NCBI RefSeq assembly: GCF_006335115.1
Contig: NZ_VDMJ01000024.1
Coordinates: 244,852 to 308,851 of the forward strand
Origin: Streptomyces sp. NP160
GTDB taxonomy: Bacteria > Actinomycetota > Actinomycetes > Actinomycetales > Quadrisphaeraceae
Direction of reading: 5' to 3'
Length of the DNA stretch: 64,000 nucleotides
This document shows, one piece after another, positions 2,962 through 21,996 of the stretch; the first letter of the stretch is position 1; every line of letters starts with the position of its first letter. Made by a program: the position numbers and the translations under genes. The notes below the pieces were generated by a model that saw nothing but the letters and a program-made list of their open reading frames with translations, was not told the DNA's origin and made no database searches.

Positions 2962-3573
2962 GTGAGCGAGCAGGGTACCCAGGCGGAGCCGGGCGCAGGG
3001 CCGCGTCGGCGCGTCGTCGTCGCGGAGGACGAGGCGATCATCCGCCTCGACGTCGTCGAGATCCTCCGTGAGGCGGGCTACGACGTGGTGGGCGAGGCCG
3101 GTGACGGCGAGAGCGCCGTCCGCCTCGTCGAGGAGCTCCAGCCCGACCTGGTGGTCATGGACGTGAAGATGCCCGTCATGGACGGCATCAGCGCCGCTGA
3201 GCGCATCGGCAAGGCGCGCCTGGCGCCCGTCGTCCTCCTGACGGCGTTCTCCCAGCGCGAGCTGGTGGACCGCGCCCGTGACGCCGGCGCGATGGCGTAC
3301 GTGGTCAAGCCGTTCACCTCCGCGGACCTGCTGCCCGCCGTCGAGATCGCCGTCTCGCGCTTCCAGGAGATCGCCGACCTGGAGGAGGAGGTCGCCGACC
3401 TCACCGAGCGCTTCGAGACCCGCAAGCGCGTCGAGCGGGCCAAGGGCCTGCTCATGACCCGCATGGGGCTCTCCGAGCCCGAGGCGTTCCGGTGGATCCA
3501 GAAGACCTCGATGGACCGCCGCCTCACCATGCGCGAGGTGGCCGACGCGGTGCTCAGCCAGGTCAGCAGCTGA
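2962..3573 (+). CDS. pdtaR: ANTAR-domain response regulator (PdtaR-like)
   Basis: 203 residues. A receiver domain (about 16-130) carries the acidic pair E22/D23, phospho-acceptor D67 in VVMDVKMP, and the conserved lysine in VVKPF. A helical linker leads to an ANTAR RNA-binding domain (about 140-198: RKRVERAKGLLM, then AFRWIQKTSMDRRLTMREVA). In mycobacterial PdtaR, the cognate kinase PdtaS phosphorylates the receiver and the ANTAR domain acts on hairpins in target RNAs to prevent termination. No kinase gene is adjacent here. The GTG start was chosen because it follows a -10 hexamer by 6 nt and there is no better start. Position between pyk and polA matches mycobacteria. Confidence 0.9.
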   Translation: MSEQGTQAEPGAGPRRRVVVAEDEAIIRLDVVEILREAGYDVVGEAGDGESAVRLVEELQPDLVVMDVKMPVMDGISAAERIGKARLAPVVLLTAFSQRELVDRARDAGAMAYVVKPFTSADLLPAVEIAVSRFQEIADLEEEVADLTERFETRKRVERAKGLLMTRMGLSEPEAFRWIQKTSMDRRLTMREVADAVLSQVSS

Positions 3574-3603
3574 CGCGCCCGCGGTCCCGCTGACGGGCGG
3601 TCA

Positions 3604-3638
3604 CCGGGGGTGCTGGGCGCGACGCACAGCACCCCGGG
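3604..3638 (+). terminator. Hairpin after the ANTAR regulator gene
   Basis: The arms ccgggggtgctg / cagcaccccggg can pair over about 11 bp around a 12-nt loop, 30 nt after the stop. Confidence 0.6.
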
Positions 3639-17612: not shown

Positions 17613-19715
<2,103 letters not shown>

Positions 19716-19746
19716 CGACCGGCTCGAGGGGTAGGGGACGGCCGTG

Positions 19747-19776
19747 CGGCGCGCACCTGATCGTCTTGGCGCGCCG
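19747..19776 (+). terminator. Possible uvrB terminator hairpin
   Basis: The 8-bp stem cggcgcgc / gcgcgccg has a 14-nt loop, 32 nt after the uvrB stop and before the riboswitch. It is weaker than other terminators here. Confidence 0.35.
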
Positions 19777-19810
19777 TCAGCGGTTGTTCAAGGTACGGTA
19801 AAGAGAACGT

Positions 19811-19945
19811 GAGGGGAGTATCCCTGCGCGCAGGTTCGTCATCACGGTCCTCGGCCCCGCCGAGGACCCGGACCTGCGGCTGACCGGCGAGAGCCGGCAG
19901 TGGGAGAGACCTCCGGTCTTCTCGCGTCGGTCCTGAACCCGGAGG
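19811..19945 (+). ncRNA. yybP-ykoY (Mn2+) riboswitch controlling terC
   Basis: The 5' GAGGGGAGTAT (19811-19821) and TTCGTCATCACGG (around 19835-19847) match the two conserved metal-binding loop regions. A perfect variable hairpin gtcctcgg/ccgaggac follows, then GAGAGACCTCC (19904-19914). P1 would pair GAGG (19811-19814) with CCTC (19910-19913). The same 3' strand can instead pair with CCGGAGGTCTC around the terC ribosome-binding site GGAGG (19941-19945). Ligand-stabilised P1 would therefore free the site, an ON switch. Family knowledge: yybP-ykoY senses Mn2+ and often controls TerC/Alx-type exporters. No rho-type terminator is needed. Confidence 0.82.
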
Positions 19946-19951
19946 TCTCCC

Positions 19952-21001
19952 GTGGACGTTCCCCTCTGGCTGTGGGGTGTCACCCTCGCCGCCATCATCG
20001 GCATGATCGTGTACGACTTCGTCGGGCACGTGCGCACCCCGCACGCCCCCTCGATCCGCGAGGCGGCCATCTGGTCCGCCGCCTACGTCGGCATCGCGAT
20101 CGTCTTCGGCCTGCTGATCCTCGTCTTCTACGGCGGCCAGTACGGCGGTGAGTACTTCGCCGGGTACATCACGGAGAAGGCGCTCAGCGTCGACAACCTC
20201 TTCGTGTTCGTGCTGATCCTCACGAGCTTCGGCGTGCCCCGCGAGTACCAGCAGAAGGTGCTCCTCATCGGCATCGCCATCGCCATCGCCCTGCGCGGCA
20301 TCTTCATCGCCGTCGGCGCGGCCGCCATCCAGAACTTCTCCTGGGTGTTCTGGATCTTCGGCGCCATCCTCATCTACACGGCCATCGCCCAGGTGAGGGC
20401 CCAGAACGACCACGACGAGGAGTACAAGGAGAACGCGGTCCTGCGCTTCACCAAGCGCATCCTGCCGACCACCGACGACTACCACGGCGACAAGTTCACG
20501 ACCAAGGTCGACGGCAAGCGGTTCGTGACGCCGATGCTCGTCGTCATCATCGCCATCGGCACCGCGGACCTGATCTTCGCCGTCGACTCGATCCCCGCGA
20601 TCTTCGGCCTCACGCAGGAGCCGTACCTGGTCTTCGCGGCCAACGCGTTCTCGCTGCTCGGCCTGCGCCAGCTGTACTTCCTCATCGACGGCCTGCTCGA
20701 CCGCCTCGTGTACCTGCACTACGGCCTGGCCGCGATCCTCGCCTTCATCGGCGCCAAGCTGATCATCCACGCCATGCACGAGAACGAGCTGCCCTTCCTC
20801 AACGGCGGTGAGCACATCACCGTCATCCCGGAGATCTCCACGCCCGTGTCGCTAGGGTTCATCGTCGTCGCGCTGGCCGTCACCACGGTGCTGAGCCTGC
20901 GCAAGTCCAAGAAGGACGACGACGCCCAGGCCGACCGTGAGGGGAACACCATGAGCAGCACCACCGGAGCCGGCCCAGGCTCCACCCGCCAGGACGGCTG
21001 A
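19952..21001 (+). CDS. TerC-family membrane protein, copy 1
   Basis: 349 residues with about 9 membrane spans. TerC hallmarks are the acidic intramembrane motifs EKALSVDNLFVF (about 70-81) and ADLIFAVDSIPAIFGLT (about 207-223), where paired Asp residues are thought to bind metal. Family members (Alx, MeeF/MeeY types) export manganese, in some cases to supply secreted metalloenzymes. GTG 19952 is set by GGAGG 6 nt upstream, the site controlled by the preceding riboswitch. The C-terminal 30 residues are polar and of low complexity. Copy 2 follows after 2 bp, so both are almost certainly one transcript. Confidence 0.93.
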   Translation: MDVPLWLWGVTLAAIIGMIVYDFVGHVRTPHAPSIREAAIWSAAYVGIAIVFGLLILVFYGGQYGGEYFAGYITEKALSVDNLFVFVLILTSFGVPREYQQKVLLIGIAIAIALRGIFIAVGAAAIQNFSWVFWIFGAILIYTAIAQVRAQNDHDEEYKENAVLRFTKRILPTTDDYHGDKFTTKVDGKRFVTPMLVVIIAIGTADLIFAVDSIPAIFGLTQEPYLVFAANAFSLLGLRQLYFLIDGLLDRLVYLHYGLAAILAFIGAKLIIHAMHENELPFLNGGEHITVIPEISTPVSLGFIVVALAVTTVLSLRKSKKDDDAQADREGNTMSSTTGAGPGSTRQDG

Positions 21002-21003
21002 GC

Positions 21004-21996
21004 GTGCAGGAGCTGCCGACCTGGTTCGAGGTCGGCACTCTCATCGCGCTCGTGGGGCTGCTGCTCGCCGACCTGCTGGTCGTCGCGCGGCGGCCCCACG
21101 TGCCGTCCACCAAGGAGAGCGCCCTGTGGGTGGGCTTCTACGTGGCCCTCGCCGTCGTCTTCGGCGTGGTCATGCTCGTCATCCCCGGCGGAGGCACCGA
21201 ACCCGCCTCCGAGTTCTTCGCCGGCTGGATCACCGAGTACTCCCTCAGCGTCGACAACCTCTTCGTGTTCGTGATCATCATGTCGAGGTTCGCGGTGCCC
21301 GCGGAGGACCAGCAGAAGGTCCTCATGGTGGGCATCCTCATCGCCCTCGTCCTGCGGGGGATCTTCATCCTGCTCGGCGCCGCCGTCATCGAGCGGTTCA
21401 GCTGGGTCTTCTACATCTTCGGCGCGTTCCTCATCTACACCGCGGTCAAGCTGGTGCTCGACAGGAACGAGGACGAGGAGTACGAGGACAACGCCCTCAT
21501 CCGCAGGATGCGCAAGGTGCTGCCGCTCACCGAGCACTACGACGGGGCGAAGGTCCGCACCGTGGTGGACGGCAAGAAGCTGTTCACCCCGATGGTCATC
21601 GTCTTCTTCGCCATCGGCAGCACCGACCTGCTGTTCGCGCTCGACTCGATCCCGGCCATCTTCGGCCTCACCGAGGACCCGTTCCTCGTCTACACCGCCA
21701 ACATCTTCGCGCTCATGGGGCTGCGGCAGCTGTACTTCCTGCTGGGAGGTCTGCTGGACCGGCTCGTCTACCTCTCGATCGGTCTGGCGGTGGTGCTCGG
21801 CGGCATCGGCGTGAAGCTGGTGCTCGAGGCGCTGCACACCAACGAGCTGCCGTTCCTCAACGGCGGGGAGCCGTTCGAGTGGGCGCCGGAGGTCCCGATC
21901 TGGGTCTCCCTGGTGTTCATCGTGGCCGTGCTGCTCGTGACGACGGTCGCCAGCCTGCTGCGCAGCCGCCAGCTGGAGCGCCGCGGTCAGGCCTGA
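21004..21996 (+). CDS. TerC-family membrane protein, copy 2
   Basis: 330 residues with the same fold and motifs as the gene just before it (TEYSLSVDNLFVF, TDLLFALDSIPAIFGLTEDP), but clearly diverged in loops and ends, so the duplication is old. The GTG start lies 2 bp after the upstream stop, with AGGA about 10 nt upstream. Two unlike TerC proteins under one Mn2+ riboswitch could form a hetero-oligomer or differ in metal or affinity; sequence alone does not tell. Confidence 0.92.
   Translation: MQELPTWFEVGTLIALVGLLLADLLVVARRPHVPSTKESALWVGFYVALAVVFGVVMLVIPGGGTEPASEFFAGWITEYSLSVDNLFVFVIIMSRFAVPAEDQQKVLMVGILIALVLRGIFILLGAAVIERFSWVFYIFGAFLIYTAVKLVLDRNEDEEYEDNALIRRMRKVLPLTEHYDGAKVRTVVDGKKLFTPMVIVFFAIGSTDLLFALDSIPAIFGLTEDPFLVYTANIFALMGLRQLYFLLGGLLDRLVYLSIGLAVVLGGIGVKLVLEALHTNELPFLNGGEPFEWAPEVPIWVSLVFIVAVLLVTTVASLLRSRQLERRGQA

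Follow-up and report, generated by a model that had tools for sequence, protein, structure and literature searches.

The window analysed here, a stretch of 64,000 nucleotides from Streptomyces sp. NP160, carries two consecutive terC genes on its forward strand. The first (terC gene 1, 19952–21001, 349 aa) begins with GTG and matches PF03741 with an E-value of 8.6e-51, which bears out the identity that an earlier sequence-only reading of this DNA had given it; among the 64 terC loci compared, its nearest relative is that of Quadrisphaera granulorum, at 93% identity. The second (terC gene 2, forward strand, 21004–21996, 330 aa; PF03741, E 5.1e-51) starts 2 nt past the stop codon of gene 1 and has no match of its own in a scan of the window with R1, the covariance model described below; after the leader of gene 1, the runner-up in that scan scored 16.8 bits and nothing else exceeded it. 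The two genes are probably on one transcript and gene 2 is probably translationally coupled to gene 1, so that they would be expressed together.

The leader occupies the space between terC and an upstream ORF that ends at 19715 and that, judged by eye, we take to be UvrB-like. A -10-like hexamer, TACGGT, lies at 19794–19799 on the forward strand and recurs as TAnGGT in four of four aligned leaders (the window, L003, L004 and L005). This is the predicted promoter element, and transcription would probably start at about 19805. A sigma-70 scan found no promoter at 19794–19799, and shuffled sequences likewise gave none.

The leader contains an aptamer with a three-way junction (19806–19918, forward strand) that R1 matched at 83.1 bits (E 3e-17), a score that is not independent since the window was one of the 39 rows used to build the model. 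The switch helix P1.1 pairs GAGG at 19811–19814 with CCTC at 19910–19913; it is only 4 bp long in the window, where U19810 stands opposite C19914. Next come the 5' strand of L1, GGAGUA (19815–19820), in which A19817 matches the A-minor A10 of the L. lactis numbering, and P1.2, formed by UCCC at 19821–19824 and 19902–19905. P3.1 pairs GCAGGU at 19830–19835 with 19872–19877 and encloses the 5' strand of L3, UCGUCAUCAC (19836–19845), the P3.2 hairpin (19846–19868, with 19846–19855 pairing with 19859–19868 in the computed fold) and the 3' strand of L3, CGG (19869–19871), the columns of which are almost invariant in alignment A1 (see below). P4 is a further hairpin of the computed fold (19879–19901), with 4 pairs modelled. 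The gap between P1.2 and P3.1 is 5 nt in the window and P2 is absent, so the junction is not the four-way P1–P4 one. The Shine-Dalgarno sequence, read from the sequence as GGAGG at 19941–19945, lies 6 nt 5' of the GTG, and the start codon at 19952 lies 38 nt past 19913. That spacing had been given by the sequence-only reading, and the letters that it had assigned to GAGG, CCTC and GGAGG all stand at the places it had named. The free fold of the leader, masking helix included, was more stable than all 200 shuffles (z -3.92); the structure is not a product of chance.

R1 was built from 38 of the 64 terC relatives, those with GGAGTA followed by CGTCA at near-constant spacing 5' of the gene, together with the window (39 rows), on a hand-drawn structure comprising P1.1, L1, P1.2, P3.1, L3, P3.2 and P4, with P2 omitted. 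It matched 40 of 67 local sources: besides the window, these were 39 terC loci out of the 64, including L050, which was absent from the training set. Within these 67 sources the weakest of the 40 matches scored 49.5 bits and the strongest noise 16.8 bits. Twenty-five terC loci had no R1 match, Mycobacterium and Bifidobacteriaceae among them. Although it was built without any E. coli row, R1 also picked up the E. coli alx leader (39.9 bits; E 1.7e-8 over 9 kb), with L1, L3 and CCGG in register; the E. coli mntP leader gave no R1 match at E up to 10. At the level of genomes, R1 matched 199 of 296 Actinomycetes (E up to 0.01), 45 of 198 in a whole-phylum sample that overlaps the Actinomycetes set in part (E up to 0.001) and, in the phylum to which the Gallionellaceae locus L060 belongs, 8 of 200. 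The source genome holds a single match, which is that in the window. Copies were compared in a sample that took in 71 other loci besides the window, alx and 27 of the 39 element-bearing terC loci (12 close relatives omitted). Its 104 R1 matches came down to 99 copies once alx itself and four duplicates, which arose where loci overlap, were set aside.

We measured covariation in a MAFFT alignment that was not fitted to the structure (A1). The score was 0.367, against 0.178 in shuffles and at most 0.165 with slid partners; 82.3% of cells were paired, against 71.7% in shuffles, and changes on both sides were seen in 21 of 26 pairs. Four of five covariation measures lay above all 500 shuffles, and the fifth, the count of further pair types (48), was equalled by 47 of the 500. 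The larger alignment A3, which was fitted to the model, scored 0.594 against 0.209 in shuffles. P1.2 was paired in 98.1% of cells in A1 with double changes in three of its four pairs, and all six pairs of P3.1 had both-side changes in that alignment. The weakest helices in A1 were P3.2, with 64.3% of cells paired (83.9% in A3), and P4, with 71.8% over its 4 modelled pairs.

The nucleotides of the metal core are strongly conserved. L1 (GGGGAGUA) is present in the window, and in rows partly chosen by motif its G8, A10, G11, U12 and A13 are kept in 100 of 100 distinct rows and G9 in 98. By alignment, A19841 appears to correspond to A41 of L. lactis, a register based on the L. lactis sequence and on its published numbering (PMC9190785). 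The position is A in all 100 distinct rows, alx included, again among rows partly chosen by motif; the C40 position is C in 100 of 100 (rows partly chosen by CGTCA), and the U39 position is A in 10. An A41-to-G change in GDT1-linked copies, which had come from aligning these on GUC, was dropped because the 10-nt alignment of L3 gives A throughout. The first rows were picked by GGAGTA and CGTCA and the remainder by a model trained on those rows, so that the invariance of L1 and A41 is partly a matter of selection and makes a weaker argument. Published accounts have Mn2+ coordinated by N7 of one adenosine, A41 in L. lactis and A48 in X. oryzae, and by phosphoryl oxygens of L1 and L3; its binding stabilises P1.1 (PMC9190785, PMC6754395).

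According to the sequence-only reading, 19910–19913 pairs either with the 5' strand of P1 or with the GGAGG of terC. Both helices are present and conserved, and they are mutually exclusive, so they would compete for this strand. The masking helix is longer than 19910–19913 alone: 19906–19916 (GAGACCTCCGG, forward strand), made up of the L1 3' strand, the P1.1 3' strand and 3 nt, is the exact reverse complement of 19939–19949, giving an 11-bp perfect inverted repeat with GGAGG inside. The arrangement had also been described as compact and without an extra expression platform. The helix uses GAGA at 19906–19909, in the L1 3' strand, and the CGG beyond P1.1, and there is therefore a little dedicated platform sequence.

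Out of the 99 copies, 92 had all four pairs of P1.1. In 68 the region of the P1.1 3' strand could form 7 or more consecutive Watson-Crick pairs with sequence beyond the aptamer, where shuffles gave 4.1 such copies on average and never more than 7; the remaining 31 had no masking helix of 7 bp. Such helices were found in 61 of 81 terC copies (shuffle mean 3.0) and in 7 of 18 non-terC copies (shuffle mean 1.1). Duplex energies, compared in 76 of the 81 terC copies, were -14.4 kcal/mol with the copy's own partner against -12.6 kcal/mol with foreign partners, a difference beyond all 2000 permutations; five copies were dropped, one for want of a start codon and four because the motif was missing, and some of the start codons used are wrong. 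The own Shine-Dalgarno sequence ranked in the best 10% of partners for only 16 of the 76, with a median rank of 21.

In seven of 97 rows compared (of the 99), three strands change jointly, as GAAGG/CCTTC/GAAGG in L074, TGAGG/CCTCA/TGAGG in L136 and CGAGG/CCTCG/CGAGG in L130, L143, L145, L146 and L151; the P1.1 3' strand is misplaced in seven rows of this comparison, and the partner count is without a control. The five CGAGG copies may be of common ancestry, and L144, one of six copies with CGAGG/CCTCG, is a counter-example that has no matching Shine-Dalgarno sequence. Joint change of this kind is the signature of a strand that has two alternative partners.

Computed energies favoured the masked state. 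For an RNA ended at 19957, the free fold, which is masked, came to -87.5 kcal/mol, against -78.8 kcal/mol with P1.1 and P1.2 enforced; with coding sequence to 19970 the values were -96.3 and -79.5 kcal/mol. The free fold of 19800–19935, the RNA before the Shine-Dalgarno sequence is made, differs from the drawn P1.1/P1.2, in nearest-neighbour energies that exclude tertiary contacts. Since the masked state is far more stable and the shorter RNA does not fold as drawn, Mn2+ would have to act kinetically or contribute a lot, and co-transcriptional timing would play a part. An additional OFF-state pairing in the free fold, of 19811–19818 with the terC start, was rejected as not selected (mean duplex energy -10.98 kcal/mol, against -11.24 kcal/mol in synonymous-codon shuffles; 76 rows).

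We also identified the genes that follow the copies elsewhere. By tblastn, TerC follows 81 of the 99. Nine of the 18 non-terC copies precede GDT1-like genes, of which three were tested and all three matched PF01169; we take GDT1 to be the UPF0016/TMEM165 family. The nine (L127, L128, L129, L131, L135, L137, L138, L139 and L150) have an L3 resembling GUCGACAYRCUG, unlike the terC copies. Single non-terC cases involve ATP-synt_D (L134:1501-1605), GreA/GreB (L121:1501-1608, before a short ORF adjoining the GreA/GreB-like gene) and PGPGW. Short, partly hydrophobic ORFs follow L121, the minus-strand copy of L130, L141 and the plus-strand copy of L143. Release-factor-like (baeRF-like) ORFs come after L126 (above the Pfam cut-off) and L141 (just under it), in L141 with a short ORF standing before it, and for L118 and L153 no downstream gene was recognised. 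Two loci hold divergent, back-to-back riboswitches, L130 (1253–1367 minus, 1501–1605 plus) and L143 (3264–3366 minus, 3469–3617 plus), each with one copy before terC and the other before a short ORF with a hydrophobic start (64 and 59 codons, respectively). TerC and the UPF0016/TMEM165 family are both linked to Mn export (PMC13274385), and from its family the TerC of the window would be expected to transport Mn2+.

Assignment to the yybP-ykoY class, as the sequence-only reading had made it, fits L1, L3, the covariation and the match of R1 to alx. That reading had named a poor covariance score, in an Infernal search with RF00080, the yybP-ykoY model of Rfam, as a result that would refute it. 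The result was negative, but alx was missed as well. At the gathering cut-off the whole window yielded tRNA only, a permissive scan of 19700–20000 (E up to 10) gave no RF00080 match, and none of 15 relatives scanned, out of the 39 terC loci bearing the element, was matched. The alx leader had no match at the gathering cut-off or at E up to 10, and the mntP leader, at 41.6 bits, stayed under the cut-off of 45. The negative result is therefore uninformative, and after these controls failed we dropped RF00080 as arbiter of the class. Across the 296 Actinomycetes genomes it gave no match above the cut-off and a weak one (E up to 10) in 58; it exceeded the cut-off in 2 of 14 control genomes. Of the five strongest matches under the cut-off, three adjoin an RNase P RNA gene but lie on the opposite strand. 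The other two, L098:1501-1608 and L099:1501-1593 (both minus strand, 32 bits, in two Actinomycetes genomes), stand 5' of Na/Ca exchanger genes (PF01699), and their L3 resembles that of mntP. The source genome has two RF00080 matches, of 13.8 and 8.8 bits, on other contigs, where R1 finds nothing.

Several studied elements resemble the one described here. The E. coli alx leader controls a TerC-family gene that is annotated as encoding the Mn exporter Alx, as the window element would control terC. It shares with the window the L1 sequence GGAGUA, a 10-nt L3 with CA at positions 5–6, and CCGG, and by our own reading it lacks P2, since P3 follows almost directly after P1.2. It differs in its GC content (48%) and in that its P1.1 3' strand, by eye, has another downstream arrangement, with CCUUGCC and a local hairpin. 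The alx leader is activated by Mn2+ and by alkaline pH (PMC9603457). The mntP element, which resembles that of the window in its L1 (GGGGAGUAG), is described as a translational ON switch of an Mn exporter (PMC9603457), the role also predicted for the window element. It differs in that more sequence, with a P2 hairpin, separates P1 from P3, and in its L3, which we read as UCAACAUACU. L. lactis yoaB, a solved structure likened here by description rather than by sequence, has the P1.1 switch helix, the docking of L1 and L3 and A41 at the Mn site in common with the window, but it has a four-way junction with P2 and a transcription terminator. Likewise by description, an RF00080 yybP-ykoY element is predicted 5' of terC (cg2157) in another actinobacterium, C. 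glutamicum, where a transcript starts at a distance of 6 nt from the predicted edge of the element (PMC3890552). The mgtA element of Streptococcus pneumoniae has a three-way junction, as in the window, and differs in controlling mgtA at the level of transcription (review PMC9495176); with alx also lacking P2, the missing helix is not exclusive to the window. In Vibrio, the genes of MneA (TMEM165/UPF0016) and TerC are under a yybP-ykoY riboswitch (PMC13274385). A yybP-ykoY element before terC, the three-way junction and the control of terC and MneA are thus already on record. Among the matches listed in our literature search, which mostly lay outside subscription journals, we recognised no description of ribosome-site masking by yybP-ykoY in actinobacteria.

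We interpret the leader as a yybP-ykoY Mn2+ riboswitch in a P2-less three-way-junction form that would act as a translational ON switch of terC, with a probability of about 0.88 in our estimate. At low Mn2+, P1.1, a weak helix of 4 bp, would give up its 3' strand to the Shine-Dalgarno region in the 11-bp hairpin, and terC would stay untranslated. Mn2+, the presumptive ligand, would bind between L1 and L3 and stabilise P1.1; 19910–19913 would then be occupied and GGAGG free, and at high Mn2+ the probable Mn exporter TerC would be made. The ON logic had been put forward by the sequence-only reading, and it fits the mutually exclusive pairings, which suggest this direction of switching. The observation made there is confirmed and its interpretation is supported.

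An Mn2+ riboswitch of this kind might instead act mainly on transcription, through Rho-dependent or intrinsic termination. Rho-dependent control is reported beside the translational switch of mntP (PMC11647493) and the L. lactis element works via a terminator (PMC9190785), but the conserved complement in the present leaders targets the Shine-Dalgarno region, and at its end (GGTCTCCCGTGG) the competing hairpin lacks a T run. A terminator scan of 19600–20100 found no site, and shuffles gave almost none either. We consider control mainly by termination unlikely. We give an equally small chance to the same fold answering chiefly to another signal, such as alkaline pH or another divalent ion. The only studied element that R1 matched, alx, is activated by both Mn2+ and alkaline pH (PMC9603457), and the mgtA element of Streptococcus is reported to bind Ca2+ (review PMC9495176); the Mn-site core nucleotides, the conservation of which stems partly from row selection, and the ties of TerC and the UPF0016/TMEM165 family to Mn export (PMC13274385) speak for manganese. 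That the leader holds nothing but a Shine-Dalgarno-masking hairpin in GC-rich DNA, with no sensor, is highly improbable: the masking hairpin is indeed the free-energy minimum without ligand, but the covariation of the aptamer, the conserved L1 and L3 and the match to alx across phyla all argue against it.

With the Mn2+-responsive translational switch as the preferred reading, the window element is a further example of a known riboswitch class and a warning about RF00080. More tentatively, and at somewhat less than even odds, the P2-less form shared by terC and alx may be a distinct branch of the Mn2+ riboswitch class that spans the phylum Actinomycetota and escapes Rfam 15, in which one strand covaries with both P1.1 and the Shine-Dalgarno sequence and which is possibly tuned by pH besides Mn2+. 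A large branch goes unnoticed by RF00080 of Rfam 15, which passes its cut-off in none of the 296 Actinomycetes genomes, against 199 of 296 matched by R1, and Mn control is therefore probably under-annotated in actinobacteria. The leader in the window offers a clean, testable case of a predicted Mn2+-gated ribosome site in high-GC bacteria.
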